Below are positions 37,401 to 59,361 of a stretch of DNA of 64,000 bases, one piece after another. The translations under genes and the position numbers were made by a program. The DNA lies in NCBI GenBank assembly GCA_002245135.1, contig NGBS01000005.1, forward strand, positions 124,001 through 188,000. The letters are read 5' to 3'. Below the pieces are notes generated by a model that was not told where the DNA came from, ran no database searches, and worked only from the letters and a program-made list of their open reading frames with translations. Position 1 is the stretch's first letter. Each line of letters opens with the position of its first letter. Source of the stretch: Proteromonas lacertae (taxonomy: Eukaryota > Sar > Bigyra > Opalinata > Proteromonadidae).

Positions 37401-40400
37401 AATATTCCAACAGTTTTGACTTCATATAATTACTTCTAATCATATTTAAATGTTTTAATAGAGTATATTGTTGATTATTATTGTTTTGATTTTCTATTGT
37501 TTTTAACTTATTATTCATCTTCAACTTCATATATGCCTTATATAACAACTGTTTATTTTGATTTGTCTTTATTGAATTCAATACATGTAATTTTCTGTAT
37601 GTATTTAGTTGAAATTTCCATTTATTCATACAACTGACTAGTTGATATTTCTCCAATATCATTATCATCTTTTCCAACTTCATTTTCATTTCCTTCCTCT
37701 TTTCAGCAGCTTCTTTCCATTTATTAAATATTTCATTCAATATTTTCTTGTTATTTTGTTTAACTAACATCTTTTCAAGTATTTCATCATCTTTCTTCTT
37801 TACTTCTTCACATTCTTTATTCACTAAATATAATTTCCATTTATAAAATGCAGTATATAATTTGTTATTATTGATTTTACTTTGAATATTATAAATATTT
37901 CTACATCTATATAATTTCTTCATTGATTTTGATTCTTCACTTTCTTTCTTGTTTATATGATTCTTCTTTAATAATGAAAATGCTAATGATATATTCCTAA
38001 CATACATTCTATGCAATATGTTATATAATAAACTCTCTACATATTTACTATATAGCATATTATAATGTAATTTGTGAAATGAGTGTTGAATTACCATATT
38101 ATTTCTATTCTTATATATTTCTACCAATCTTTTGATTTTATTGTATTTATTATCATTTTCTTGTTCTTTATGATTAGTATAAGATTTCCACTGTTTCATA
38201 ACTTGGGTGAATAATCGCTTATCTCTTTTCAATATTAATGTAGCTAACAATATCTTCAATCTATCTTCATTCTTAAACAAACTATTCCATTTTCTGATTG
38301 ATATTCTCTTTAGATACTTTTTTAAGATTATATTAAGTCTTTCTAGTTTATATTTCATTCTTAATGGCTTAATGTAATCTTTCCAAGTGTTATAACATCT
38401 TTCAATTCTATCCATTTTCATTTTTGTCAATACAGTATTCATTCGATTAGTAGCTGATATTCTTTTATCTGAAGTGGATTGTTGTTCAATTGATTTAATA
38501 TAGAAATGCAATTTATTGAAATATCTAATCTTTATTTGCCTTATTCTGTTTTTGAGTATTAATTCTAACTTATCTAAGGCATTTTTCATCTTTATTTCAT
38601 CCATATTAAGAGTATTAATCCATTTATGATATGATTTTGATACTGTTAACTTGTTATGATGGTTTAATAATGAAAATAGTATCGTTATTGCTGTATATCT
38701 ACATTTATCATCATTACTCATCTCTTTATCAATTAACAGTGAATTATATTTCATTAAATTGAAGGATTTACATTTGATATACAGTAATTTAGATTTCATC
38801 ATTGTTTCTAGTCTTATTAATGAATGAATTATTGATATTTTATCTTTCCATTTATTCAATTTTGATCTTAATATCTCATTGTAATAACGTTTACTCATAT
38901 TATCTAATAACAATAATCCTTTATATAAATTCTGATTTGTTAATTGTGATTGAACTCTTAAATAGTTCCTATTATTATTCAATTGATTAAAACATCGATA
39001 TAATCTTTTACTACAATTTGATTTATACATTTTCACCATTATATTAAAACCTGTTGTTATATTCATTTGTTCCATTAATTCATTGTTAATTATATCCTTC
39101 CAAATATAAAATGCTTTAATTACTTTAGATTTTAACTTATTACTACATATGTTAAACAGTATATTGCAACCTGTATTATATTTATTTTTATACACACTAT
39201 TCTTATATAAACTTGTGAAATAATTTGATAAAAGTTTATATCTCATTCGATTATCCAAGTTAACAAGTGCTAATTTCTTTTGGTTATTTTCTAACTCTTT
39301 TTTATTCAGTATCTTACTCATTATATTACTTTTATCATTCCATATTCGATAATAATAATGTATAATATTCTGTTGATGTTTATTATAAATCTTATTCAAT
39401 ATATTTATAGAATTTCTTTTTCTCTCATTCTCATATTCAATATTATTGACATATTCTATCCATATCGATTTACTGTGTGATAATCTTCGTTTATAATAAT
39501 TCAATAATGAATAATATAACTTATAAAATCCAAGTATATGATTGGTTTTAATATCTAATAATGATTTCCTTTTAGATGCAGCATTCTTCTTTAATGCTTC
39601 TATCACTTTATGATACATTTTATATTTGTATATTTCACCAATATTCTTCAACAATTTCTCTTTTAATTTGTTTAATAAATCATTCTGTTTCATTTTACTT
39701 ACTGCTAATTTCCATTTATTATATTTTTCATTAATTCTTCTTTGTTTATTGATTTTTAATATTCTATTAACTTTCTCAATAAATAATTGATATTTCATTT
39801 TTCTAAATAGTTTTTTATTCTTCTTATGATTAGATATATATTGTTTCCATATACCAAAATATGCATGTTTTAATTTGTTGTTATAATTCTTAATAATATT
39901 CTTATATATCATTGACATACCATAATTTAACATATATTTCCTCTTCATCTTCAAATACATTATTAATATTATCATATTATATTTAATTATGCTGTGTAAT
40001 TTAATTTGATATTTCCACTTAGTCCAACCTCTAAGTAACTGTTTTTCTTCATTTCTATGAATTATATTATATAACAATGCTTCAGCTCTTGCTCGATTTC
40101 CCATTGACTTTATATAAATATTCCATATTTCAACTGCTTTTCTCATTCTTCTCAGCCTGATCTTATCTAATGCTGAAAATAATAACTTTAATCCTTGGTT
40201 GTAATTTTGAGTTGCATTTACATCAATTTCTATTTGTGGTCTTGTTGATCTTTTTCTTTGTCCTGTTGGTGGTAATTCTCGTACTATTGATACTCTGTTG
40301 GATGTTATGGATATACGAGATTGACGTCTTGAATTGGGTAATACATCTGCTGGTGGTAGTTCACCTTGAAAATCACCTTTTGCTAACATCCTCACTGATG

Positions 40401-40791
40401 GAAGAAGAAAAATATGTTTTGATATTAGATTGTTTAATGCCACTTTATCCTCTATTACACAAATATAGCAATTAATATACTATCTTTTGGATATAACTTT
40501 TTTGCAACTTTCATTAGTGCCTCTACAAATGCTTCGTATGTTAATGTTTCACTTCTTTCAGGTAATGACTCTACAAACGCCTCCTTCACAAAATCAATGG
40601 TAATATTATCATCAATAACTCCTTTACAATCAGATATTAATTTTACAAAGACTTTCTCATCTATTGAATCATTATTTTTATAGATTAATACCAACTGTTT
40701 TTGTACGCTTTCCTGATCCTGTAAATGAAAGAAACTCGAATACGTGTCTCAGTGTAACTTTATACGCTGAGCTAACATACAGTGAAGCCAT
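34432..40791 (-). CDS. Giant Sfi1-like centrin-binding repeat protein
   Basis: Three exons (introns 40661-40691, 40452-40480) encode 2099 residues in frame. Residues ~35-100 contain a helical segment (FVEALMKVAKKLYP) that resembles a non-canonical EF-hand-like fold; this part is uncertain. The rest is dozens of degenerate helical repeats, each ending in a hydrophobic-x2-W-[KR] core (HAYFGIWKQYI, SFNKWKNEI, CLNNWKEIH, GFDKWKDY and many others). They match the Sfi1 centrin-binding consensus with a Trp anchor about every 23-40 residues. Sfi1 forms a long helix coated by centrin at spindle pole bodies, basal bodies or contractile fibres. The number of repeats is well above yeast Sfi1. The C-terminus is acidic and Ser-rich. 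It implies a microtubule-organising or fibrous centrin structure in the organism. Confidence 0.85.
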
Positions 40792-40928: not shown

Positions 40929-42305
40929 TCATCTACTATTAGGTATTGACATATGTCTTGTATTGCTATTATTACTATGCAGACTATCATTAATGCTATG
41001 AGGATTATTTGGTGGAGGATTAACCATCATTACAGTCAAAACTGGATCTCTTATAGATGTTGGATTAAGAGATCTTTTAACACTATTACTAATCTGATTA
41101 TTTAAGTTACTACCATCATTATTATTATTACTGTTATTATTTACAATATAATTATGAGAAGATCTAGTTCTATGTCTCATTCTATCTCCTAAACTTCCAT
41201 TATGAATTTGTGGAGAAGATGATGAACAGGATACTGTCAATACTTTCACTGGAATATGAACATTTGATGATTTCATTTGAATTAACCCATGAATTGAATT
41301 CGTGCGAGATGAATAACCACATTGATGTCTTATTTTATTAATCATATTATCAAAAGCTGATTTGTCTGGATTCTCTAAACAATAATCGTAATGGTATGGT
41401 GATGGTTCAGATGTGAATAATACTCGACTGATTCTATAACAACATGATTCTGAAGGTATTATTATTGGATCTTGTTGAGTATTTTTGTTATAATAATATT
41501 TAATTCTATTCATAATGTTCTTATAATGGTAATTAGTAAAAACTACATTCACTGTAATTAATTTTACTTGATAGATGAAAGCTTGAAATGCTATTGAGTT
41601 TTGAAAATATCCTAAGAATGATTTTATTGAATAAGTAGCTTGACTACCTGGCATATCTATCGCTGCAATTTCTAATGAGTATTCTAAATCGAAATAGATT
41701 GATTCGTTTAAGTGTAATTTCTCCATAAAATATTTGATTTGAGGCAATGTGATATATAAGTTACTATACACTTGACACATTGTTAATAGCATTGTCAGGA
41801 TGTGAGATACGTCAAAAAAAGCGAATATGCATACAAACAGAAAATAATCACTGTAATTTACAAATCCTATTTGAAATTATAACAAAACTAAAAAATACCT
41901 GAATTAAAGTATGTACGGATTAAACCTGAATATTCTGAACTGTATTTAGATATTATTTTTTCTATTTGTATGTATGTATCATCATTTTCTATTGACCACA
42001 TTGACAAATACGATTTAATTATTTTATTTGCTTCATAGGTAGATACTATTTTAACGAAATAATGTTTATTATATACAAAAACAAGTTTCAGCCATTAACC
42101 TCATATTGCAGCTTAGAGGTAGTAATAGATGTTTTCTAAGATATTTTTGTGAAGACTTTGCTTTTTCTGAAGCTTTGACCTATTCAAAATAACCAACTGC
42201 TAATACAATCGACTGAAGAGTAATTTCATCAGTAATTGAATTTCTTAACATGGCACTACTTCTCTGAGATATTCTAGGTTTCCGAGTAGAAGACATTCTA
42301 TTCAT
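40929..42305 (-). CDS. PSPYHYDY-family paralogue 1 (unknown function)
   Basis: Four exons (introns 42180-42206, 42046-42076, 41867-41898) encode 428 residues in exact frame. Member of a nine-gene family in this window. Order: short Ser/Arg N-terminus; linker ending ETCF; STYEANKIIKSYLSMW helix; YSDYFLFVCIFAFF; LLTMCQVYSNLYITLPQIKYFM; a variable middle; YSIKSFLGYF; a helical Y-rich section; then ESCCYRISRVLFTSEPSPYHYDY and CGYSSRTNS, and a disordered Ser/Asn tail. The helix-loop-helix spacing resembles calcineurin-B-like EF hands with calcium ligands replaced (inference). There is no signal peptide. The loop CIFAFF is hydrophobic but too short for a confident membrane span. It is the member nearest the Sfi1 gene, which it follows on the same strand side. 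Confidence 0.75.
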
Positions 42306-42550
42306 CACAATAAAAAAACGAAAATAATATTTTTTTATTCGTTTTATTTTTATTCAAATCTCATTTTCTTCTAGAAACAACAAATACAAGTTGTGTGGTT
42401 TTGATAGAGATATTCTGTTGTAGAAACAATGCTATTTTAAATAATCTACTATAAAAACAAATGAAAATTAAATCAGGATATTAAACTTTAATAAAGCATA
42501 AATTAGAATATACCAGTATATTTATTAAATTAATAAATATAAATAAAAGA

Positions 42551-43829
42551 TTAGCAGAATATTTGATTAGAATCTTCAATGGATGGAGCAATTTGAACTT
42601 TTCTTGAATGTAAATTTGGTGTATTAGCTAAAAAAGATATGGAATCTCCTCTTGATCTTGATCTATCAATAGTTGGAACAACGAAACCTTTAACAGATAA
42701 CGATTTATTCACATTTATTCTTCTTTTTGAACCTTGTTCACTTGTTTTTAAGATATGGATAAATCCAGAGTGTGACAAACCACTAGATCTATCTCTATTA
42801 CTAATAAGTGAGTTGGTTCTTAAAGAATAACCATAATACTGTTTTATTTCTACAATTATCTCATCGAAAGTATGTTCAGTTGGATTTAGAGTTGAATAAT
42901 CATAATAGTAAGGAGATGGAGACTTTGTAAAAACTCTGACAATTCTTTCATACCAAGGTTCTGATGGAACTTTATCATTCTTTTTACAAGAATAATAAAA
43001 TGACATCTTTCTTTTGATGATTTTGAATTGTGAGAATTTAATGGTAAAATTTATTAATTGACCTTTTAGAGAGTATAAGAATTGATTAAATGCATTATAA
43101 TCTTTAAAATAGTTTATAAAACTTTTTAAAGAAAATGATGGAGTTCTATATATCAAACTTTCTAAAATATATACTCAGATGCAACTCTTGATTCTTCCAA
43201 TTTGTTACACAAATCATTTACACGAATGAACTTTAAATCATACTTTTCACAGAATAGTTCAATTTGGTTCTAATGAAAATAAAACAATACTTCTAATAGA
43301 TATATACTCTTGTTATGAATATATTACTATATATTCTCACTAATGACAATAGAAGACACACTATTCGAGTATTATCGAAGAATATCATCACACATATAAA
43401 CACAAAGAAATCATGGTAATATACAATATCTATGAATATAGATAAATATCATTAATACCATTTTCAAAGAAACTTTTAATGATTGATGCGAATTTATCAC
43501 TAAAACAGCTTGTCAAGTGAAGAAATTTTGACATAATTGTAGGTTATATCTTTAGCCCATAACTCTAGATAAGCTCTTTGAATTAGAGAAATTTCATATT
43601 TATTCACTATGATAAAAATAGGGCCTATATAAAACATACAAAATAAAGAATCTGCTATATGAACATCTATTCTACCCAAACCTAATATTAAAGGATAACC
43701 TTTGTTGTTGTGATATTTATCGTAGTTGTACACCTCCAGCTAGAATGAAATATACAATAGGAGTCATACAAGCCTTTCAGCAGTCAATTCATCTGAATCA
43801 TATTCTATATTTTTATTTGCAACTGACAT
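42551..43829 (-). CDS. PSPYHYDY-family paralogue 2, probable single-base frameshift
   Basis: This gene has the same architecture as its neighbours: N-terminal exon (MSVANKN), linker ending ADSLF, NKYEISLIQRAYLELW, HDFFVFICVMIFF, LLSLVRIYSNIFIT, SFSLKSFINYF, and PWYERIVRVFTKSPSPYYYDY with GYSLRTNS. Introns 43740-43769 and 43607-43639 match positions in the paralogues; two or three more lie between 43140 and 43480. Reading breaks at a four-A run on the plus strand (43502-43505): the frame hits a stop cluster after SSLDKLF but resumes one base later with SDKFASIIKSFF. Either one base was inserted (assembly or mutation) or the copy is newly inactive. The Lys/Glu of ESC-x2-K is altered to EPWYER, the least conserved version in the family. 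Confidence 0.6.
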
Positions 43830-44390
43830 TGATTTAAACTAATCTTCAGGAAAGAATATTGAGGTAAAAATTTTAAAAATGTAATTTACACATGTCATTT
43901 TACACCATTCTTATAAAATAATGAATGAATAAATGGGTAAATACTATTATAATGTTCTATGTTTTTAACATGTGTAGAATTGAATATTGAAAGAAGTTAT
44001 ATAGAATTCGAAAATTTTATCAACATTTTGCTACAGAAGATGTTTGATAGATTAAATTACATATAATATCGTTTGTTGTGTTGAATAACATAGATGCTAA
44101 GTCTTGCTAATTAGTTTCTATAAAATTACTTCATTACCTTACAACGAGGTAAAAAGATATGTTAAATAAGTCAATTATATGAATATTAAAAATGGTAAAA
44201 TCATGTTTGTAAATTATTATCATCTGATTATTATAAAGAGTTAACAAAATTGTAAACTGATTCAATAGTGTTCCAGATACAATGCAATGTCTAATCTCTC
44301 ACAAAAAGAAGCTTATAAAGATACCTGATTATCTTTACAGCGACAAAAATAAACTTGTTGTATAATAGCTTGAAATTTTGTTTTGATTAG
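43830..44390. other. Intergenic region between paralogue 2 and RCHY1
   Basis: AT-rich, no convincing ORF. It must contain the promoters of two divergent genes and the unresolved first exon of the RCHY1-like gene. A short readable start (MSNLSQKEAYKDT at about 44288) could be that exon, but no donor joins it in frame to 44391. Confidence 0.5.
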
Positions 44391-45462
44391 GATTTTTTAA
44401 ACTCCATTCACCAGGAAAAATTGAATTCGCTTGATGGTTATGATTTAGAGACTGAAAAGCAAATAGAAGTATATTGTAATACTATTATTATAATATTATA
44501 GAAGGAAATTATCAAAATTAGTATTGAAAATGTAAATAGTAACAAAAAACTTACCAAAGATATCAAAAATGAATTGATTAAAGTATATAAATAGATCACT
44601 ATCCTATAGTGTATTTCTCATTATCGTAATTACCAGAAAAAAGATGTGAATACTGAGTATGGTTGTAAACATTATAAGAAAATGTGTTTAATTTTAGCTG
44701 AATGTTGTAATAAATACTATACATGTCGTTTATGCCATGATGAATGTGAAACTCATCAAATTGATCGTTCAAAAATCAAAACAGTAAAATGTCTTTTATG
44801 TGACACTGTTCAAAACATCAGTAATAAATGCATAAATTGTAATATCGAGTTTGCTAGGTATTACTGTGATATTTGTCATTTCTTCAATGATGATAAAAGC
44901 ATTGATATATATGTATTAATTATACTTTATTATTGATAAATAGCATTGTAATAAATGTGGTATTTGTAGAGTAGGAAAGAAAGAAGATTATATTCACTGT
45001 GATAAATGTGAAGGTTGTTTCAGTAAAGTAGGTCATATTTGTATAGAAAAGAATATGAAATCCAATTGTCCTATATGTTTTGAAAGTATATTTGAATCAA
45101 GAGAATCTTCTACTGTTTTAAGATGTGGACATATCATTCATAAAACATGTTTGTCATTGTATTTACAGAATAATTATGTATGTCCTTTCTGTTCCAAATC
45201 TATATACGATGCTATTGAATATTATAAGAGTATAGATGACTTTTTAAAGGATGAAGTTCTTCCACAAGAATTCGATGGTTTGTATAATTTAATATATTGT
45301 AATGATTGTGAGAAGAAATGTTATGCAAAATTTCATTTTAAATATCACAAGTGTAGTTATTGTAATGGATATAATACAATTGTTGTTAAAAATTTGTCTA
45401 AAAAGGAAAGTTTATCTGAAGATGATATTGAAAAAATAACAGTTTATATAAATACAAAATAA
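44391..45462 (+). CDS. RCHY1: RCHY1/PIRH2-like CHY-zinc-finger RING E3 ligase (5' end unresolved)
   Basis: Readable from an exon beginning DFLNSIHQE at 44391, with introns near 44473-44503 and 44586-44635, and one at about 44910-44941 that splits DIY|HCNKCG. The protein has the complete PIRH2 order: CHY-type zinc finger (YGCKHYKKMC, CRLCHDE, CLLCDTVQ), CTCHY finger (CDICHFF, HCNKCGICRVGKKEDYIHC), RING-H2 (CPICFESIF...CGHIIHKTC...CPFC), and the C-terminal zinc ribbon (CNDCEKKC, HKCSYCNGYNT). This family ubiquitylates substrates such as p53 in animals and stress regulators in plants. Substrates here are unknown. It converges on a Cys-rich gene, 11 bp between stops. The first coding exon is not resolved. 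Confidence 0.86.
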
Positions 45463-45473
45463 AATTATACAAA

Positions 45474-46154
45474 TTAGTAAAGTAATTTAATCTTATTATT
45501 AATTCTTCTTCTATATGTTTTGCTCATTAGATATTCACATTTTTTAACATTTCTACAGTATAAACACAAACTACATAATTCATAATCATTCTTTTTAATT
45601 GAATACCTTATATATGAATAGAGCTCTTTAGAATGTTTTAATCTGTCACATCTGTAGCAGCCACTACTCTCATTTGTACACCTTTTTTCCCAATCACCAA
45701 GCTGTGTGATTGATTTGAAGACTTCTGATGCACATTTTAAGCAAATATAAGCACAATCACGATAATTAAAGCATTCTATCATACTGACATTGTTTTGACA
45801 TCTTAAACATAATACTTTGGATTTTTCAAGTAATTGATATTTTTTAACTGCTTTTTGAAATTCAATTGTATGTTTAATGTTATTCTTTGCAGCTGTAATG
45901 GTTTTCTGCTTTATTTCTTCTTTCACTATATTGAATTTATTATCTGGAGTTATTACTGATTTAGGACTGTCATGTGGTGTAACTTGTGCTTTATATTCTT
46001 GAGTAGTGAAAAAATTACTAGGTACTAAAACTATTTGAGGGGTTGTAAGATAATTTAAAACAGGATTTATTATAACCTTAGGAAGATTATCATCATAAGG
46101 ATATATTGTGGATGTCGAAGTTGTAGAGAGCTTATGAAATGCTGAACAATGCAT
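45474..46154 (-). CDS. Hypothetical Cys-rich zinc-binding protein
   Basis: Single exon, 226 residues, family not recognised. The N-terminal half is disordered and Thr/Pro/Val-rich. A helical stretch (QKTITAAKNNIKHTIEFQKAVKKYQ) leads to a C-terminal block of Cys pairs, CLRCQNNVSMIEC, CLKCASEVF, GCYRCDRLK and CSLCLYCRNVKKC. These could chelate two or three zinc ions in ribbon or treble-clef folds. It ends in a very basic segment (KTYRRRINNKIK) that could bind nucleic acid. It lies between two members of the PSPYHYDY family without resembling them. Placement 11 bp from the end of RCHY1 is convergent, so co-regulation is not implied. Confidence 0.65.
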   Translation of the reverse strand: MHCSAFHKLSTTSTSTIYPYDDNLPKVIINPVLNYLTTPQIVLVPSNFFTTQEYKAQVTPHDSPKSVITPDNKFNIVKEEIKQKTITAAKNNIKHTIEFQKAVKKYQLLEKSKVLCLRCQNNVSMIECFNYRDCAYICLKCASEVFKSITQLGDWEKRCTNESSGCYRCDRLKHSKELYSYIRYSIKKNDYELCSLCLYCRNVKKCEYLMSKTYRRRINNKIKLLY

Positions 46155-47244
46155 GTTTCTAAATTCTGTCAGATAAAAACAAATGTTTAATATTTTGTCA
46201 AAACAATTGTTTTTTTGGGTTGTTTTTTTGTCAAATTAGTGGCATTCCATAATCTTGAATAAATAATAATCATAATAGGTAAATATTCATATATCTTAAT
46301 GATTGAAACTCTAACCTAAAGCTTTTACCTGATTATTTGTTAATCACTTTTATACACCAACATAACATCTTCTACTTGTTAACTTTAGTATAAACTAATT
46401 GTTTATATACTTTTCTAATGTTTTGGAAGGGTTGATATTATTTATCTCTTTCTTTTTAAATGCATAAACGAAAGTATATTACTTACATATCGATTTTTAT
46501 CTTGTATTAATTCACATAGTGACATTATCATACATTCACAAAACAATGTAATTTATATTTCATTATACCTCGTCAATGTCAGAATTCTATTTTATGAAAT
46601 TCACAATTATAGAAAGAATGTATATCGTATCTGAAATAGAAATACTTTAGTATTATATGTATACATGAAAATAGATACATCAAATAAGTTATTTAAAGGT
46701 AAATACTTACCTATCAATAAATTATCACTACATATAGAGATATTTATTCCAATTTTGTGAATATAATTTACACATAATGTGTTCTCTACTGTATTAGACT
46801 CAAAATATATTAAAAACGAACAAATAAATGAAGATCTTCCTTATAGAATAATATTACTTTTTAAATAGAAGACACTTTGAAAATAGGGTATGTTATGTGG
46901 TTAATAACTAGATTATATTTTTATCATTCAGATAGAAAAGTAATGTATATTTTATACTCTTAATAGCTGTAATATATTCTAATTTATATCTACATTATCA
47001 TACAGTCATAAAAATTATCAGAGTTACAAAAGTATCTTCATTGTTTGGTTTTATGTTAGAGTGTATATACACTTAATAGCATTGTAAAAAATGATACAAG
47101 AAATTATCATTACAATGACCTATGTCTTTTTATAAATAATTTGGTTTAATAAAATGTCATTTTAGTAGTTACACTTGTATTTAATTGGTTAATTGTTTTT
47201 TATATTTTTTTGAGCTAAGTGAGACATATATCTTATTTCTATTT
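46155..47244. other. 1.1 kb intergenic region, no gene identified
   Basis: Very AT-rich. I found no ORF with recognisable protein on either strand. The minus strand around 46500-46560 reads a short MIMSLCELIQDKNRY segment faintly like the family's LLSLCEVRSN motif. That could be a relic paralogue but is too short to claim. Confidence 0.4.
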
Positions 47245-48421
47245 ATGAGTACATTGGTATCTGATTGTAAGCAGAACAAAGATATCAATATAGAATTACT
47301 TGTATGAGATAGATTCTATATTTTTAGGATAAATCCTTCAAAGTAATATCAAAGCGAAAGAATGTGCCTTCTAAAAAATTATTATTGCCATTGGGAGCAT
47401 GTGGAGAGCGTACGGCAAAGACATTGTTCAGTATTATAAATCTAAGTGCTTAAATATAATATAAATAGTGAATATCTACGAAATAAATTTAATAATGAAA
47501 TCATATATAGAAATATGGTCGAAAGCGAGATTCTGTATATATGTCCAAGTTGAACAGTTCTTGGACTGTTATCCAGAAGAGACTCATGCATTCTTCCTAC
47601 AATTCTTCCAATCAGGTGTTGTCACTGCAGATGCATATTTTGTGTTTGTGTGTTTGTTTTTATTCTTCTCTCCTTCTCAAATAATATCAATAGTTTTGGC
47701 TAATTGTAAAGTATATAGTAATTTAATAATTACAACTGACCAAATTCAATCAATGTTCCAATACTTCCCAAAAGAAACAAAAGAAAAAATCAATATAAAT
47801 TCAATCATTACATTATCACAGTCATGCAGCACACCTCTATTACAGCAATCTCACCTTACAAATACTATACCAATCAAACCTTTTATAGATTATTTATCAG
47901 CATCACCTGTAATACACTCATTATTATACGATTTCCAAACAATTTTGATTAAGTATACTATATCTCTGCCAATCTATTATGAAATGATACAAAAACATTT
48001 CTATTTATACAATCAATTTAGATTAAACCTTCCTCATCCTTCTGAATCCTGTTGGAGTAAAGTAAACCGTATATTATTCACCACAAAGCCATCTCCATTT
48101 CATTTTGACTATTGTTTAGGAAATCCTACAACAAAAAGTATGGATGAATTGATCATTTTTTTGAAGACAAAAAATGGCTATTCATCCAGACCTCAATCGA
48201 GTTATGAATTGAAATCAAATTCAAATTCACCTCAACTTATATTAGATGGTTCTAGAAAACACAAATCCTATTTGTCACTTAGTTCTCCTAATTATTCATC
48301 ATTTATGCCTCCCATTGATAGTAGTCCAGGTAGTATAAACGATAGTAATAACAGTACAGCAAAATTCTCAATATCTCGAAATCAAGGGAAAATACATCCT
48401 CTTCCCAAGCATATTCCATGA
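47245..48421 (+). CDS. PSPYHYDY-family paralogue 3 (unknown function)
   Basis: Three exons (introns 47302-47327, 47431-47468) encode 370 residues in exact frame. N-terminal exon MSTLVSDCKQNKD; linker ending AKTLF; then NIYEINLIMKSYIEIW, the FVFVCLFLFF core, VLANCKVYSNLIITTDQIQSMF, IPIKPFIDYL, and SESCWSKVNRILFTTKPSPFHFDY, followed by GYSSRPQSS and a Ser/Asn tail. Introns 1 and 2 fall at the same codon phases as in paralogues 4, 5, 7, 8 and 9. Members without the later introns (3, 7, 8) have the same protein architecture, so intron gain or loss has happened within the family. First plus-strand member after the 1.1 kb gap. Confidence 0.75.
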
Positions 48422-48578
48422 AATATTATTTATTTATTGATATTTATATTTTATAAACTTATATTTGATGAAGGTTGTTTTTTTTTAACGAAAAAATCCC
48501 CCAACAGAAATTGTTTTATAATTTTTAAAATTTTGACAATCCCTTATATTTCTTTTCTTCTCAATTTGTTTTTTATAA

Positions 48579-49907
48579 ATGTTTGCAGTAAACGATAATC
48601 AAATGTCGCCTGTAATAGGCACAGAAGAATTGGTATATTTTTTATGTAATTCTTTAGAGAAAAGCTTATGAAGTAATACATAAACATAATAAAACGTTCC
48701 GTTCGTTCGTTCCATTACACTTAGATCAGTCAGCTATTTATATTTGTAGTTCATTATTTCGTATGTCATATTTTTTTAACTTTCATAGTTAATAAATATG
48801 AAGTGAACGATATACTAACGGTCTATCTGGGATTATGGAGTTGTAACCCTGAATTAGACCATGTTCCTTTAGAAAGACTTATTACACATTTTCCTGATGA
48901 TTACTCTGGTCTTTTGAGATCATTTTTCATGAATCCAAGGATTACATGTAGTGATTACATAATATTTGTGTGTTTTTTTACATTTTATGACATACCTCAA
49001 TTTGTTCCAGTGTTTTTAACAATGAGTCATATTTTAAGTAATGTATTTGTGTCACAAGAACAATTATATTCATTTTTCACAAAATTTGGCTTAAAGAAAG
49101 AAGATTATAATGATTTATCACCACTACTAAAAGAATCAACTTATGAAGTTGAAGAGTATATATATAATTTATATTTATTATTATATAGTTGTCCAACGAA
49201 TGCCTTTTCAGTTAAAGTCTTTGAACACTATTTAAAAACAAATCTCACATTTACCTCTTATATTTATAAACTAAAATCATTTTTACTCGATTTCTGTGTT
49301 GATCCAATAGCTGTGTATAGGATACAAGAAAGAATGAAGTTTTATTATAGTCATAATGCTGATAATATCAGTCTAATTGAAAAGCCAAAAGAATCATGTT
49401 TGAATAAAGCTTATAGATATCTCTTCAGTAGCCTGTCCTGAGCCATATCATTATGATTATGCTATTAAAAACATAACTGAAGAAAAAGCTAAAGAAGAAA
49501 TTGTTTTTATGATTAAAAAGAGATTTGGATATTCCATGAGAGGTAGTTCATTGCTTCATTGGAATCCTATCTCAAGAGTTAGAGCTAATAGCCATTTTAC
49601 AGCTAGAACACCAACATCTACCAGAAATCACACAACTAGAAATCGTGCTAATTCATATGCAATAGGTCCAAATAATGATATAAAGATTAATAAAATGAGT
49701 AATAACAATAGTATTGATGAAAAAGAAAATGAAAAGAAGAAGATAAGAAAGAACAGATCTTTGAATATTGAAACCGCTAATACATATAGTTTCTTAAGTC
49801 CATTAAAATCACCGATATTTAACAGATTAAGTAGTAATGAAGTTATAATTCCTCATAAGATATCAGTAGAACCTCATCGAGGAAGTAACAAGATTTTCCC
49901 TATTTAA
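48579..49907 (+). CDS. PSPYHYDY-family paralogue 4, probable single-base frameshift
   Basis: Introns 48633-48657, 48761-48788 and 49156-49188. N-terminal exon MFAVNDNQMSPVIG; then LNKYEVNDILTVYLGLW, DYIIFVCFFTFY, FLTMSHILSNVFVSQEQLYSFF, NAFSVKVFEHYL, and KESCLNKAYRYLFS. The frame then breaks at about 49425-49435, exactly inside the family signature. One base shift restores CPEPYHYDY and FGYSMRGSS and a ~130-residue basic Ser/Arg/Asn tail ending at 49907. No homopolymer explains it, so a real +1 mutation is possible, as is assembly error. If real, the product would lose the most conserved part of the family. Intron 3 (33 nt) is a multiple of three and reads through with an open frame. Confidence 0.6.
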
Positions 49908-50021
49908 GCGTTTTATTTATCAGATTATTTAATTTTTTTATATTTGTTGATTATTTTTTTTATGAATACTGTCTGTATGAAATGTTTGTTCTGTTGTTTG
50001 AAATAATTTAAAAAATTTATG

Positions 50022-50028
50022 TCAAGCC
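50022..50028. promoter_or_regulatory. TCAAGCC (inverted GGCTTGA) upstream of paralogue 5
   Basis: Inverted copy of the recurrent heptamer, 69 bp before the ATG at 50097, in the gap after paralogue 4. Placement fits the other intergenic copies; function inferred. Confidence 0.35.
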
Positions 50029-50096
50029 AAACTTCAGTTGATTTATTTGTTCGATTTTTATAGTGTATTAAATAAATAATTTAGTAAATAAAAAGT

Positions 50097-51315
50097 ATGT
50101 CAATAGTATCCCCATTGAATACCTCGATGATGAATGAGGTAAATAATGTTGATTACGTATCTTATTTGTTCTTTTATACTTAGAACCATGCATATCGTCA
50201 AATGGAAAAAGGAATAAATAAACGGCACAAGTTATTATACTGTTCTATATCACAAGCTACACAATTAATCGCAAAGACTCTGTTTTGTATATATTTACAT
50301 ATCTGATATAAATTTTAATAGTAAGTATTTATGAAGTAAATAAAATTGAGTGTTCATATCTTAAATTGTGGATTAAACACCCAGAAAACAGTTTTGTATA
50401 TAAAAACGATATAGCTATGCTGTTTCTACCTCAAAATAGAGGATTTGTAAATAATTTTTTTCCTAACGGTATGATTTTTATAATTTAATAATTAGATCAA
50501 GTTAGTTGTAATGATTATGTGTTGTTTATATGTTTTTTCTTGTTCTATGATGTTAATGATATTCTCACAGTGTTATTAGCAATGTGTGGTGTAAATAGTA
50601 ACATATTAATATCTAAAGAAAAAGTGATTCGGTTTTTTGTAAATTTTAGTTTAGTTGAAAGTGATTATGCTGATTTATTTATGTTGTTAAATCAATCAAA
50701 AGCATCTATGACAGAGTATTATTTATATATTATATTATATTATATTATAATCATAGTTATGATTCATATCCATTGAAAGTATGTGTAAATTACTTCAAAA
50801 CCAATTTCAATTTTTCAGTTGTAATACACACATTCAAGCAAGATTTAAGTAAAGTGACTTCTTTAGATGAAGAAGATATATCCATAATAGAAGACAAAAG
50901 ATTTTATTATAATAAAATATTACAAGATTCAATGAATATCTCAGAAACTCCTATTGATCCAAACCAAGCCTTTATATTTATGCCAAAACCACCTGAATCA
51001 TGCTTTTCTAAAATATATAGGAAATTATGTACTACCAGACCTAATCCATACCATTATGATTTCTTTATTTATGTATCTCCTAATAAACTAAAAGCAACAT
51101 TGTTATCTCAATTGAAACAGAAATTTGGATATTCTGGAAGAGGTAATTCTTATCAAAGTCTATTTATGTCTCCAAGATTGAATGTGAGGATATCAACAGG
51201 AGAAAATAGTAAAACGAAGAAAACATCATCTAAACTGTCTGGTAAATGCTTTTCATCTCCGTCTCTTGATAATATGTCTTCATTGTATTCAAAGAAGAAT
51301 CTACCTAACACTTAG
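50097..51315 (+). CDS. PSPYHYDY-family paralogue 5 (unknown function)
   Basis: Five exons (introns 50139-50183, 50287-50321, 50469-50495, 50716-50756) encode 356 residues in exact frame, the most intron-rich member. N-terminal MSIVSPLNTS; linker ending AKTLF; SIYEVNKIECSYLKLW; CNDYVLFICFFLFY; LLAMCGVNSNILISKEKVIRFF; YPLKVCVNYF; PPESCFSKIYRKLCTTRPNPYHYDF; FGYSGRGNSY; short Ser/Lys tail. Intron 3 lies at the same codon as in paralogues 1 and 6, and intron 4 at the same codon as in 4, 6 and 9. These shared positions show the ancestral gene had at least four introns and that members without them lost some. Intact. Confidence 0.75.
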
Positions 51316-51627
51316 AATTATATGTAGTTAAAATAGTTATTAGTATATTATATTCGAAATTTAATTTGAAATTTGTTCTTTTGTGTTTAAAAGTAAAATC
51401 ATAATCTGTTCTTTCTTTATTAAATTGTTTGTAAATCTTTTTAATTTCTTATATTTCATTTATATATTGATGTAATGTGTATTGATATTACATCATCTCG
51501 TTATAGCATGAGTATTATGCAATTAAATGAATTGAATCAATAATATAGTCGTTTCAACTACAATTTTTTTTGTTTTATTTTTGCGTTTTTTATTCATAGA
51601 GCATAGGCATTTATAGTATATTATTAT
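51316..51627. other. Intergenic, no feature seen
   Basis: A 312 bp AT-rich gap between paralogues 5 and 6. A short ATG frame at about 51508 ends quickly and is not a family exon. No GGCTTGA motif. Confidence 0.6.
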
Positions 51628-52826
51628 ATGTCAGTTGCACAATTCGGAGATAGCTTTAATGCCAAAGATTTTCCTATTTCTTCTCTCGTATTGTTTTTTA
51701 TCTGACAAATTAGGAATTTTCATGTAATTTAATGCTTTCACATAAAAGTGGTAGATATGCTGGATGCTATTTACCTCTTACTCAAGTTAATATGTCAATG
51801 TCTCAAACATTATTCTTAAATAAGAATGAAATTAATATCATTCAAGAGTCCTATTTGATGTTATGGGGTAGAAATCAAAGAATGAATTATATATTACCTT
51901 CAGAAGTGCTTAATGAAATAGATAGTAGTTACGAAGTTTTAGTCAAAAAATATTTCATGAAACGTATATTACTCAATATTCTTATTATTATTAATATAGC
52001 AGAAATATATTTTGATGAGTATTTTACGTTTATCTGTGTGTTTGTTTTTTATGAACCAAGTCAGTTATTCAATCTTCTTCTATCAATATGTAACATTCAC
52101 AGCAATATATTCATATCAAAAGGGCAACTAGCAGAAATATCAAAAATATTTAATGGTAAAATAGTTTCTTCACAATTTGTTAATATTTTAAATAATTGTT
52201 CAAAAAACGATAATACTGAGTATAATTTATTATTATTATTTCTATCTATCATTATTATCATTAGATATCCTCCAAATACATTTTCAGTGAAAACATTAAA
52301 CTCTGTAATAAACGCATGTGATGCTTATAGAGAGTATTTCTCTCAATTAAGAAATCAATTAATAAATTTGACTATTACTCCAGAAATGTATAATAATATA
52401 GTGAAAAGAAGAGTATTTTATAATGAACATGGTATTACTGCTATTCCGCCGCCAGAACCATGTTTCTCTAAGTTAATTCGAAGTACATTATCTAAAACAC
52501 CATCGCCATATCACTATGATTATTCTCCTTCTACGCCCAACCAAAATGGAATGGAAGAAGTATTATTCTCTATAAGGCAAAGATTTGGTTATTCTTCTAG
52601 AAGAAGTTCATATGTTGTTAATTCAATACCTTTAACTCGTTCAAGTAAATCACTAAAATCACCTGATACTGTATTGAGTAATAGTCACCATTGTGCTGGT
52701 GAAATTAAACATAGAACCACATTTTCTTCAAAAGTAACAAAGAAATCGTCTAGATATAAATCTTGTTCAGATATGAAGCAGCAGTTATTAATAGATGTAA
52801 TTTCACCGAAAGATGAGAGTAGTTAG
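51628..52826 (+). CDS. PSPYHYDY-family paralogue 6 (unknown function)
   Basis: Four exons (introns 51688-51713, 51964-51999, 52220-52264) encode 363 residues in exact frame. N-terminal MSVAQFGDSFNAKD; linker SMSQTLF; LNKNEINIIQESYLMLW; YFDEYFTFICVFVFY; LLSICNIHSNIFISKGQLAEI; NTFSVKTLNSVI; PPEPCFSKLIRSTLSKTPSPYHYDY; FGYSSRRSSY; basic Ser-rich tail. It lacks the intron at TLF|LN that the others keep, a clean example of precise intron loss. Its second and third introns are multiples of three with open frames, so an ORF finder reports extra Ile- and Leu-rich segments that are not in the protein. Confidence 0.75.
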
Positions 52827-52956
52827 TATTTATTCTTGATTTGTGAAGTTGTTGAACAATGGGTATTTTAAACATAATCGAAAATTTTCGTTTACCATTA
52901 TTTCGGTTTTAAAATTCATTTATTAATATATCAGCCCATAATACATGAACAAGTAA

Positions 52957-54079
52957 ATGAATAAAGAAAAAACTAGAACCAGTTCCAGTTCATGCTACTC
53001 ATTGAGTGGACCACACCATATACAGATAGATAAACAATTTCTTGTATATTTCAAATGTTATACTGTAGACTGCTGCTTATCGACTCTATTTAATAAAAGC
53101 AAAACAAAAGTTTCCTGAAGTTTGCCTACCTTTAACTCAATCCTGTTATTTGATTAGCCAGTCACTATTTTGTATAAATTGATTTGTTTAATTATTAATA
53201 ATAGTAAATAACTATGAAGTTAATAAGATCTTTGGATCCTATTTGACAGTATGGAGTCAATGTCAATCTCATAATTTTATTCCATTAAAAGTATTGGCAG
53301 TCAGATTTCATCCGATATATCGTTCAATTTTAAAAGCATTTTTCACAAATGATGAAGTACATTATGATGATTTCTTTCTTTTCGTCTGTCTCATACTCTT
53401 CTGTGAAATAGATAGAATTACATCAGTACTTTTATCATTATGTGAAGTTAGAAGTAATTTATTTATTACATATGAACAAATTGTTAAATTTGTGAAAAAC
53501 TTGGATGAAAAAATCTTGTTAGCACTTGATTTGAGTGAAGTATTGAATCAATCACACATTGAAGTAAATGATTCACAAGTTGACACTTATTCAGTTAAAT
53601 CATTTCAATATTGCCTTTCATCCTCAATTGCTTATCAGACGTTCATATGTCAATTAAAGAACAATATTTTAGATGTAACATTGGGGAAGAAATTGTATAA
53701 TAGAATAGTTAATAGAAGATCATATTTTATTGCACATCCCAATGCAAAACCTCCAAAAGAGTCTTGTACTGCCAAAATATATAGAACATTACTCACAAAT
53801 GAGCCAAGTCCATATTATTATGATTTTATTAGTCCAGATCCAGTAAAATCTCTCAATGATAGTGTAGTTCTAATGAAACAAGGATTTGGTTATGCAGAAA
53901 GAAAGAATTCTACCACAGAACCACAACATACTCCAATTTCTAAAGGAAGGCCTTCATTTAATAAAAAGGATTTATCTGGTAATTCAAGAATAATTACTGT
54001 AAGACAGAAGTCAACAAGGTTTTCAAATTTATCTCCACATGATACACATGAGGAACATGATGAAAATGTTACTGTGTAA
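52957..54079 (+). CDS. PSPYHYDY-family paralogue 7 (unknown function)
   Basis: Three exons (introns 53044-53068, 53172-53204) encode 354 residues in exact frame. N-terminal MNKEKTRTSSSS; linker ending SQSLF; LNNYEVNKIFGSYLTVW; HYDDFFLFVCLILF; LLSLCEVRSNLFITYEQIVKFV; DTYSVKSFQYCL; PPKESCTAKIYRTLLTNEPSPYYYDF; FGYAERKNS; tail with HDTHEEHDENVTV. An upstream in-frame ATG is followed at once by a stop, which fixes the start at 52957. The sequence IYRTLLTNEPSPY keeps every position of the signature except the LFT Phe. Intact. Confidence 0.75.
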
Positions 54080-54301
54080 AATAATTCAACTAATATAGTT
54101 ATTTATATTGTTAGATTTGATAGTTATATCTTCATGTTATTAAGTTATACCTGTAATTTTATTTTGTTTATATTTTTGGTGTTTGTTGTGTAGAATGAGT
54201 TATATATGTAATGTTATAAAATTTATTTTAGAAGTTGTCCGTTTCATCATTTTTAATTTTATTTGAATTTTTTATTTATTGTTGTTTAGAAAAATGAAAG
54301 A

Positions 54302-55633
54302 ATGATGGAATCAGATACAAATGTAGAAAAGCACACAAACTCTATGACGATTGTTGAGTTAGTATTACCTTATATATTTTCTTCTATTGTCACATTAGGA
54401 AGCAATAGTCAAAAAGATTAAAAAGTCGATGAAAATAAGTCAAGATAGTTTATATATTCCATATAGAAAGCGTTCATATCTGATTATTCAATCTTTGATG
54501 TGTATTTTGGTCTATTTTTATCGTTTATTCTAGTGAATAACTATGAAGTTAATCTAATAGACAAATTTTACCTTCTATTGTGGGATAGAAATAAACATCA
54601 AAATTACATTCCACTAGAAACAGTCCTAAGTGATTTTAATTCTCACTATCATGGAATAGTTCAGACATTTTTTCACTACTTTCAAATATATTATGATGAT
54701 TACTTCATATTTGTATGTGCTTTTGCGTTTTGTAATTTATCACAAATCCTTTATATATTACTAGCATCCTGTCAATTATATCCAGCAAAGTACATAACGA
54801 AAGATGAAATAAATCAATTCCTAAAGTCTACAAAGATAGCTCATTGTAGTTATGAAATGCTCAGCAGAATTGCAAGATGTAAAACTAGTAATAATAATCA
54901 TGCAAATACATCATTATCACCAAAATCACTAGAATCTCCATCAAATAACAATGATAATTCTAACTCTTCATCATTATCAGGTGGTACTGCTGCTACATCT
55001 TCCTCATCTACTCCAACTGAACAGTATTATTTAAAGTCATTTGTGGATTTTATACTCTCCTGTGACAATTATAGGAAACTAGTTAGTGATATAAAGAAAA
55101 CACTTATAAATGTAATAATAACTCCACTTATTTATTCATCTATAGTAAAGAGACTTAATTTTTTTACTAATTATCTTAATAATAATAATGCATCAATACC
55201 AAAAGAATCATGTACTGCAAAAACATTGAGAATCTTATTCTCTAATCGACCAGAACCTTATCATTACGACTTTAGACTACAATCAATAACACCAAATGCT
55301 TTTAATGATGTTGTAAGGAATATTATATTGAATTATAGAGCTTCAGGTACTTTGTCACCAGCTTTAGAGATGAATAAAAGAAAAATCAAAAAACACACAA
55401 AAGAGAAAGAAGAAATGAATAAGACGAATAGTAATAATATGTTGATGCTTTCGGATAGAATGCATCATCGTACAAGGCGTGACATACACAACCTTAGAAA
55501 GGCTGATAGTGAGAATAATATGAAATCACCTGAAAAACAACTTAAGTCAATTAGTCCTTTAGAATCGAGTTATCCAAAATTATTTATTAATAAAATAACT
55601 CCTGTACAATCAGCTGAAGAATCTGAGAAATGA
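54302..55633 (+). CDS. PSPYHYDY-family paralogue 8 (unknown function)
   Basis: Three exons (introns 54362-54398, 54502-54533) encode 420 residues in exact frame. N-terminal MMESDTNVEKHTNS; basic linker (KKIKKSMKIS); LNNYEVNLIDKFYLLLW; YYDDYFIFVCAFAF; LLASCQLYPAKYITKDEINQFL, the clearest EF-hand-like helix in the family; then a member-specific Ser/Asn/Thr insert; EQYYLKSFVDFI; IPKESCTAKTLRILFSNRPEPYHYDF; basic tail (MNKRKIKKHTKEKEE). The insert falls where other members have an intron at codon phase 2 (paralogues 4, 5, 6 and 9), so it may derive from intron sequence or repeat growth at that point. Intact. Confidence 0.75.
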
Positions 55634-55769
55634 AGTAAGCTATTTAAAACTGTTGTTATTTATAATAATATATTTTTTTATTTGTTAGAAATAATAAAAG
55701 AGTAATATGTGTTAGTGTAAATATGCAGTTGACTTTTACAACTTTTTGTTATAAAAGCTCGAATATCTC

Positions 55770-55776
55770 TCAAGCC
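55770..55776. promoter_or_regulatory. TCAAGCC (inverted GGCTTGA) upstream of paralogue 9
   Basis: Inverted copy of the recurrent heptamer, 97 bp before the ATG at 55873, in the gap between paralogues 8 and 9. Role inferred from recurrence. Confidence 0.35.
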
Positions 55777-55872
55777 CTCCAATCAGATTTAGTCATATGA
55801 CAAAACAGAAATTATCAAAAAATTTATAACTATCAAAATCTAATCAAAAGCTTAAACTATATTTTTCACAAC

Positions 55873-57195
55873 ATGAGAACCTCTCGTTTTTCTTCAGTTA
55901 ACACAGTAGATAATCCTTTAGGTACAGTTGAAGAGATGGTATAGATTCTTTTTCGATTATATAATTTCACATAGAAAAAGGCATATGCTAGTATGCAAAA
56001 TTTTAAAGTAAATAAGAATTCTGAGCTTATTTTTCCTATAACACAGAATACTTATTTCATGGCTCAGACTTTGTTTTGTATTATTATTCAGTTATGTTCG
56101 CCATAGTAAATAATTATGAAATCAATGTAATAGAATCCCAGTATTTTATGATGTGGAGTCATCACCCAGATTTAACTTATTTACCAAAGCAAGAAATTCT
56201 TTATAATTTTCCTCCTCATTGTCGAGATATTGCAGATTATTTTTTCCGTCAACAAGTAAGTTGTAATGATTTTGTCCTTTTTGTGTGTTTATTCTTATTT
56301 TTTGATGTACCACAACTCATTACCATCCTTTTAACCATGTGTAAAGTATATAGCAACATATTTATTACTGAAGTATACTATATATTTTATTAATTCTTCT
56401 TAATAGTCACAAATCTCTACATTTTTCCAACTTATGCATTTAGATATGGACAATTATGAAGATTTAAAAATATTATTAATACAATCACAACTAGAAATAC
56501 CAGAGTGTTGCATAATGTTTTTTAATTTATCTTATAGTTGTCCAAGTTGTGCATTTTCCGTCAAATTATTCCAAAGATACTTTGAAGATAGTATATCATT
56601 TACAGAGATCATTTACGATTTCAAAACTCAATTATTAAAGTCAACAATTGGTGAAGATATTTTTTTAACAATATCTAAAAGAGTTGAATTTTATTATGAA
56701 AGAAAGCCAACTGATCCAATCCCCAAAGAAAGTTGTTTACATAGACTTACAAGGAAAGCATTTACTAATAAACCATCTCCTTATCATTACGATTATGGTG
56801 TAAAATTCCCAACATTAAAGCAAAGAGATAATATGGTGTTTTTAATAAAACAAAGTTTTGGTTATTCTATTAGGAGTGCTAATTCGTACAAGAAAGATAC
56901 TATATCTGCTAGAGATGTGGTTGAGAAACTAAGTTATCCAAAACTTAATGATTATGGAACACTTTCAAGTACATGTAGGAAACATAATCAACCACATAGA
57001 AGTAGAGGTGTTACATACCCAAGAACCTATTCCAAATCATCAGCTACAATCGTTCCAGATCCTTTTATTCCAAATTCTTCTGATGAGGATGAAAGTGAAG
57101 ATCACTCCAATGATAGTGTAAATTCCCTTCCTTCACCAATGGTTAATGAAAATTACATTGCTATATCAATTGCAAAAGGTAGGAAGAGTAAATAG
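55873..57195 (+). CDS. PSPYHYDY-family paralogue 9 (unknown function)
   Basis: Five exons (introns 55939-55974, 56078-56106, 56373-56406, 56505-56537) encode 396 residues in exact frame. N-terminal MRTSRFSSVNTVDN; linker ending MAQTLF; LNNYEINVIESQYFMMW; CNDFVLFVCLFLFF; LLTMCKVYSNIFITESQISTFF; CPSCAFSVKLFQRYF; IPKESCLHRLTRKAFTNKPSPYHYDY; FGYSIRSANSY; acidic Ser tail (DEDESEDHSNDS). Last family member; the next gene on the strand is the RGS protein. Its third intron is in a position not seen elsewhere (inside the ITE-SQI loop). Confidence 0.75.
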
Positions 57196-57400: not shown

Positions 57401-59361
57401 ATGAATAACAAGGTTATTAACACTATTTTTGTTAAATCACCAAGACCACAGTATAAGTTTTAAGATCAAAACAACATAGATTTGATACAGATGAAGAATA
57501 CGAGGAATGTGAGGTATAAGATGTGGTATAATTAACTTTTAGGAGAAAACTGAGTCGTTTTTATCACCCATTACACCTGTTTCACCCAATAACTTTCATA
57601 CAACAGTATTTAAATGTTTATATTGTGTAAGGAAACAAGGTGTAACGTTACAATACATAAATTATCTACTTCGGAATATTTAAAAAGAAAATCATCAATT
57701 ATGAATCCAGCATTACAATGTCTAGAATCATATGAAACAGTAGATAGTTCTATTACTAAAAAGGCAAAAATAATAATTGAAGATAGAATAGAACTGCCAA
57801 ATTTCGTCTCTTACTTAAAGGATCAATTTCAGCCTGATATTTTATTATTATGGCAATACATTGAAAAATTCATGTTATATTTTGTTCATAACATATATCC
57901 ACCTCAAGATTTACCTAATTCAATTTTTTCATTTTTTCTTGAAAAAGGAGCTCCATTTGCAATTAGGCATTTAAATAGTATAATTATAATTATATTATAT
58001 AACATATATATAATAGTAACCGAAAGAGAAAGAGAACATCTCAGAAAGACAATTTTAGGAGGTAAATATGACTGTAATTTATTTAACAGAATTTATTACA
58101 GAATAATTCGATATTTAGAATATTCAGAACTTCAAGATTTTCTTTGTAGTGAGTATTATCTATCGAATTATAAACAAAAGCATATTATTTCATATTTATC
58201 TCATATTCCATACAAATTCATTATACAGTCAAATGAAGAAAGTAAATTATTAAAAAGTTTTATAATAGAAAAGTATAAAGATGATTTACCACTCATTGAT
58301 TTTCTAATTACATCCTATTCATATCAAATGAACTATGGAAGTATAGATACAAGATGTGAAATTGCATCTAAATTATTCCAACAATATTTATATCCAAAAT
58401 CACGAATAGCTATTGAAATGAAAGAAGAGGATTATAATGACCTTAAAAATCAAATTGAAACTGGATCATTAGGAAGATATCCATTTAAATTATGTCAAAA
58501 TATTTCATTATATTTATTAAAGAAAGATATAGATACATTATTTCTTATTAGTAGACAAGTATAATATTATTATTACTCTATATATATAGTATATGGAAAT
58601 ATTATCTATTCATTATAATATACCATATGATTTAGTTAAAGCATCTTTACTATCACAAACGTTTAATAAACTAGATAGATATATCCTTTATTTATATATT
58701 GTTTTTTAATAATATTTATCATTTCTTAATGTTTATTTATCTATTGTATCAAATGAATCTAATAGTGATTATAATAAATCAGATGATGAATCATACTCAT
58801 TTTATTCATTTCCTACTTCACACTTAAGACAATCAAAAGTTAATTCAGATTTTACAGTTTATATAAATAGTTCTATATTTGTAAGTAGAACAAATTCAAA
58901 TAGTCTTTCTACAACATCCAATGATAATAATCATAGCAATAATAGTAACAATCACAATAATGAAAAGAATAAAGAGATTGTTCCATTAGAGTATATAAAT
59001 GGATCAAAACCAATATTTGGAATTCAAGGGATTTTAACTGATAAAGATACATTCAGTTTTTTTTCATCTTTTTTATTTGATAAAGTATTTATATTTAATT
59101 ATATGTTTTTAGTATCATTTTAATGATTGTACAAAAATAACTGAATTTCTTCGTTTGTATAATATTGCTGATCAGACTAGTCAGTTAACGTTAAGATCTC
59201 AAAAGTTATATAAAGCTGCTATTAAGTATTTCATTGAGTTAAATCCTTTTCAATATTTATTACCTCCTAATTATTCAAAGAAAATTATTGATTTGTTAAA
59301 AAATAATAAATTTCAAAACGATTCGTTGGTTTCAATAAACAATTGTTTATTAAATGTATGA
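57401..59361 (+). CDS. Multi-RGS-domain protein with two in-frame stops
   Basis: Introns 57451-57479, 57514-57542, 57606-57631, 57978-58016, 58559-58589 and 59085-59112 join a protein with tandem RGS-like folds. The first is LPNFVSYLKDQFQPDILLLW ... FNRIYYRIIRYLEYSELQDFL; the second, YKFIIQSNEESKLLKSFI ... LGRYPFKLCQNISLYLL; a partial third, EFLRLYNIADQTSQLTL to the C-terminus. RGS domains accelerate GTP hydrolysis by G-alpha subunits. After the second domain the frame meets TAA TAA at 58707-58712, then continues in the same frame with an Asn/Ser-rich linker (SNESNSDYNKSDDES) to the third module. I found no GT-AG intron that removes the stops, so the gene may be truncated, split, or misassembled here. 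It directly follows the nine-gene family but does not share its signature. Confidence 0.62.

Follow-up and report, generated by a model that had tools for sequence, protein, structure and literature searches.

The 64,000-nucleotide stretch of the Proteromonas lacertae genome analysed here (the window) covers positions 124001-188000 of contig C396 in a 50.2 Mb assembly (GC ~27%) and contains, at ~40929-57195, an array of nine related genes, two on the minus and seven on the plus strand. Structure prediction assigns their products to the EF-hand fold, in the calcineurin-B/NCS/CBL class. We consider it somewhat better than an even chance that they belong to a four-EF-hand family of this class in which all calcium sites have decayed and which acts as a set of helix clamps, with partner choice set by the core. 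The proteins are thus probably permanently folded clamps or adaptors, not calcium sensors. The assignment supplies a fold for a sizeable block of genes left unannotated by sequence searches, together with two short conserved elements, a C-terminal signature and a terminal motif. If the proposal is right, the family is a very large EF-hand set that gave up calcium, with the fold reused as fixed clamps.

Two members were modelled, g7 first and g6 second, the latter read through its proposed introns. In both predicted models, helix-loop-helix units are paired with a short strand pair between their loops, as in the EF-hand superfamily, and four EF-hands fall within ~180 residues, as in NCS, KChIP and CBL proteins. 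The predicted architecture consists of two paired EF-hand lobes, then ordered helices with the ESC..R.LF..P.PYHYDY...GYS.R region, and then a disordered tail. In g7 (core 53204-54076, plus strand), hands 1 and 2 are predicted at 53210..53401 (residues 3-66), with a shortened loop in hand 2, and hands 3 and 4 at 53408..53623 (residues 69-140), with Gln at loop position 12 of hand 3. The C-terminal helices and signature region follow at 53627..53902 (residues 142-233, predicted ordered to ~residue 230), and the tail at 53903..54076 has a predicted local distance difference test score (pLDDT) <50 from residue 236. Between 140 and 165 residues of the two models superpose on NCS-1 (9gua), KChIP1 (1s1e) and AtCBL2 (1uhn), and CHP1 ranks first or second among the structural matches of both. 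The initial annotation had proposed an EF-hand-like core with helix-loop-helix spacing like that of calcineurin B. The two models and their structural matches support such a core, of calcineurin-B/NCS type, and the lack of an EF-hand-like pair, which it had named as refuting, is seen in neither. Sequence profiles do not recover the fold: at E up to 1, no EF-hand family in Pfam matches any of the 21 members searched, and none of the 137 EF-hand_7 genome matches among those listed (150 of 348 candidates scored) overlaps a family cluster. Compared profile to profile with this genome's canonical EF-hands, the family scores weakly, though above shuffles. No whole-protein profile match to a known family, such as a kinase-associated or RGS family, is seen either; such a match had been named as evidence against an EF-hand-like derivative.

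The identity, loop and tail statistics given here cover the members with fetched DNA, which are the best matches to two queries. With loop position 8 anchored at g7 I26, V52, I88 and Y129, the hydrophobic residues at this position are retained, hands 1, 3 and 4 seldom have an acidic residue at positions 1, 3 or 5, and hand 2 has a shortened loop. Of 56 sequences, 79% carry Gln at position 12 of hand 3. A canonical PROSITE-type calcium loop occurs in 0/126 family exons and in 18/18 fetched canonical EF-hand loci, a control chosen by EF-hand profile. Judged by sequence, no member sampled has a working calcium site of the NCS/KChIP/CBL kind, and the loops lack ligands as first described.

The signature was derived from 60 distinct exons in fetched DNA, out of 154 loci. 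Its consensus is P-x-E-[SP]-C-x2-[KR]-[LI]-x-R-x-[LI]-F-[TS]-x2-P-[PS]-P-Y-[HY]-[YF]-D-[YF], followed by G-Y-[SG]-x-R. The Glu is present in 60/60 exons and the Arg in 59/60. Conservation reaches 95-97% for the two prolines, 90% for the Asp and 88% (of 59) for the later Gly. The signature originally written as ESC..PSPYHYDY and FGYSxRxNS is therefore real but looser than that wording. No named family was found for it in Pfam, the PDB sequences or the paper text searched, as had been stated before, and no published description of the family appeared among the literature search results listed. Ser, Asn and Lys are abundant in the tails. Within their last 25 residues, 21 of 55 complete tails contain [KR][IVL]xP; 500 shuffles gave 1.6 on average and 8 at most, a comparison that flatters the motif because the pattern was picked after the tails had been inspected. 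Ten of 65 distinct tails ran past the fetched DNA and were excluded, and the g4 tail is absent from the set. Among the window members scored, only g3 and g8 carry the motif; the end of g4 is similar by eye, and further copies have motif-like ends such as QIAP (g2) and QVFP.

The array is one of many. The g7 protein query finds at least 144 genome exon matches at E up to 0.01, and a C-terminal-exon query at least 141 (134 of 260 and 150 of 188 candidates scored, respectively). When both tables are merged (gap <400), the matches listed amount to ~154 gene-like loci spread over 51 contigs, and for 121 of them a neighbour starts within 6 kb. The total is approximate because several contigs look like duplicate haplotypes, one split gene is counted twice (C246 ~78.8-80.2 kb, with a large insertion), candidates were partly scored and a few places beyond the 154 come from a third query. 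The likely duplicates, recognised by matching scores and spacing of their family clusters, are C753/C1144, C177/C178/C657/C658 and C505/C1159. The family thus has well over 100 copies, mostly clustered, and does not form a single nine-gene locus. The number of nine for this contig stands, with the same strands, since the two genome searches merged by position give nine loci on C396 among the matches listed.

These data do not support the recent expansion supposed at first. Among 57 distinct C-terminal regions (copies >97% alike merged beforehand), pairwise identity has a median of 28% and a maximum of 61%. The nine window members are 25-41% identical to one another (median 31%), hardly closer than to fetched members elsewhere (median 29%). 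For 20 of the 57, the closest relative lies on the same contig, a number that 2000 label shuffles never reached (mean 5.9, maximum 16). Low identities and same-contig closest relatives together indicate a family shaped by tandem duplication that took place long ago. Three protein searches (2 + 4 + 4 rows) return eight distinct proteins from other assemblies, all with the source label lgn. Each matches a single member, and one-to-one orthology is likely; P0005, for example, is a putative orthologue of g2 with 71% identity. Nine pairs were compared, eight of them involving a member from this genome and the ninth being P0001 with P0002. Identities are 64-88% for the core, 60-82% for the signature and 39-70% for the tail, with the tail cut by the edge of the fetched DNA in three of the pairs. 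The view that copies differ mostly in their tails needs to be revised accordingly: the cores are also deeply divergent, the tails change faster even between putative orthologues, and over a third of complete tails share the end motif. The g7 protein has no match in viral contigs or prokaryote genome contigs in a search that reaches close relatives only, and as far as searched the family appears lineage-restricted.

Myosin light chains are EF-hand clamps with decayed calcium sites and a permanently set groove, and the family may work in a similar manner. The hydrophobic groove, which in ordinary EF-hand sensors opens in response to calcium, would be permanently set, and each copy would hold an amphipathic helix of its own. 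The conserved signature may form a lid or offer a docking site for a common factor, and the short C-terminal motif, in the copies that have it, may recruit a common partner. Partner choice would be set by the EF core, because the copies differ in their cores as well as in their tails, and the cores are better kept between species. A more ambitious form of this proposal, which we regard as unlikely, would have a protist lineage convert the EF-hand calcium sensor to a calcium-independent recognition repertoire of well over 100 long-lived, non-interchangeable copies, each with a variable EF clamp that selects the partner, a constant signature and often a constant terminal peptide serving a common output, perhaps acting with membrane receptors that carry RGS domains.

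The fold itself could be questioned. The weak profile-profile score, the Foldseek E >0.001 for both models and the absence of overlap with the EF-hand_7 matches would suit a helical domain of separate origin that merely resembles EF-hands. In all four units, however, the EF spacing is kept, with short strands at or beside the loop position 8 hydrophobics; a global profile alignment brought hands 3-4 into register unaided, and the VIA matches listed are nearly all of EF-hand type for both models. We hold a separate origin to be rather improbable. Slightly less credible still is a family that senses calcium or another ion through non-canonical loops. Known EF-hands do include non-canonical sites, and an acidic residue occurs at position 12 of hand 2 in 50% and at position 6 of hand 4 in 53%, but the canonical loop is missing from every exon scanned, and hand 3, besides its prevalent Gln at position 12, is nearly devoid of acidic residues at positions 1, 3 and 5.

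The clamps might instead be light-chain-like structural subunits that coat long helical repeat proteins in a cytoskeletal scaffold. Centrins coat Sfi1 and light chains bind IQ helices, the predicted fold class is a helix-clamping one, and the array adjoins a 2015-residue open reading frame (34432-40479, minus strand) with many helical repeats containing Phe/Trp, and a further open frame lies upstream of it at ~40455-40748. This giant protein presumably resembles Sfi1; neither of its halves matches a Pfam family at E up to 0.01, and the adjacency rests on one cluster, that of the window. We hold such a scaffold to be possible but doubtful. That the family is decaying or selfish, with no present function, is very improbable. 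The frame break in g4 and the stops in many genome matches would fit decay, but short introns, looked at in the window only, can account for such stops. In addition, the core identity among putative orthologues, the core and signature readable open in eight of the nine copies, and the nearly invariant Glu and Arg of the signature all speak against it. Fixed helix clamps with decayed calcium sites remain our preferred explanation.

The nine genes share the order of their core blocks, with an NNYEVN-like start followed by YDDYFxFVC, YSNLFIT-x2-QI and YSxKxF, then the signature and the low-complexity tail. Ahead of the core, most genes have a short stretch that, by eye, closes in a MAQTLF-like block. 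On the minus strand, g1 (40929..42296, inferred start ATG 42296) comprises N-terminal exons, core, signature and tail, with proposed introns at 42180-42206, 42046-42076 and 41867-41898, and g2 (42551..43829, inferred start ATG 43829) has them at 43607-43639, 43430-43458, 43270-43307 and 43146-43174. On the plus strand, g3 (47245..48421, inferred start ATG 47245) has a single-exon core and introns proposed at 47302-47327 and 47431-47468. In g4 (48603..49907; introns 48761-48788 and 49156-49188), the frame breaks within the signature near 49424-49440. Because its core and second signature half sit in different frames, we read g4 as a broken or misassembled copy; the other eight are open through core and signature when the proposed introns are used. 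After g4 come g5 (50097..51315; introns 50287-50321, 50469-50495 and 50716-50756), g6 (51732..52826; in-frame introns 51964-51999 and 52220-52264), g7 (53073..54079; intron 53172-53204), g8 (54302..55633; intron 54502-54533), which has a low-complexity insertion ahead of hand 4, and g9 (55873..57195, inferred start ATG 55873; introns 55939-55974, 56078-56106, 56373-56406 and 56505-56537).

These introns were proposed from GT..AG ends in the sequence. There are 22 across the nine genes, all of them very short putative spliceosomal introns of 26-45 nt, at five shared positions that are filled in some genes and empty in others. Position i2 is occupied in 8/9 genes (all except g6), i5 in five, i3 in four, i1 in three and i4 in two. 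The initial annotation had conserved exon order and intron positions in all copies; the five common positions agree with it, but they are not identical in every gene. The ends are GTAT..AG in 21/22 cases, with GTGT..AG in g9 i5 alone. The i1 intron of g2 was identified by eye only, and both introns of g6 are in frame and free of stops.

The array is bounded by the repeat reading frame on one side and by an RGS-domain gene, directly after g9, on the other (57614-59361, plus strand; RGS match 57614-58561). RGS as the identity of the family itself was rejected, as no RGS profile matches any of the 21 members and the match at 57614-58561 belongs to the neighbouring gene. In the genome, 3/62 RGS loci have a family cluster within 5 kb, compared with 1.19 expected (P 0.117). 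Including the window's RGS gene gives 4/63 (P 0.033), a figure biased because that gene was added after the fact. Within 10 kb the counts are 4/62 (P 0.136) and, with the window gene, 5/63 (P 0.051). The co-location is a lead with weak statistics. Labelled by eye, two of the three other places hold one membrane-RGS gene and another, larger gene that combines a putative extracellular part with membrane helices and an RGS domain. These putative membrane proteins (L087 1520-2493 and L088 249-3289, minus strand, membrane parts by eye) lie beside single family genes and are possibly receptor-RGS proteins. Inside the array, a gene at 44610-45462 (plus strand) encodes a CHY zinc finger, a RING and a zinc ribbon, and we take it to resemble Pirh2/RCHY1. 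Elsewhere in the window, metallopeptidase-like frames at 19547-22056 (minus strand) contain HEAGHNMGFGHAG and look leishmanolysin-like by eye. Contig C357 carries tandem ribosomal RNA units of ~7.66 kb at ~2061, 9724 and 17384, as judged from the spacing of a universal 18S pattern.

Among known systems, CHP1/2 and calcineurin B, whose partners are calcineurin A or a sodium/proton exchanger, share with the family the predicted four-EF-hand architecture and the N- and C-terminal helices. The family differs from them in its ~10% identity, the lack of canonical calcium loops, the extra signature region, the long tail and the >100 copies. In addition, the N-terminal Met-Gly used for myristoylation in calcineurin B and CHP is absent after the inferred starts of g1, g2, g3, g4, g5, g8 and g9 (7/9) and at the first Met of g6. 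NCS-1, recoverin and KChIP resemble it in fold and supply many of the structural matches. Their first hand does not bind calcium, whereas here all four hands have decayed and no sequence match is found; to our knowledge, that family has no such C-terminal signature and tail. Plant CBLs (AtCBL2, SOS3) include the best structural match of g6, AtCBL2, with 163/189 residues aligned. CBLs bind calcium and CIPK kinases, and this analysis gave no such kinase link for the family. Myosin light chains, in which neither this signature nor this tail is known, and other EF-hand clamps that work independently of calcium are its counterparts in working mode, not in membership.
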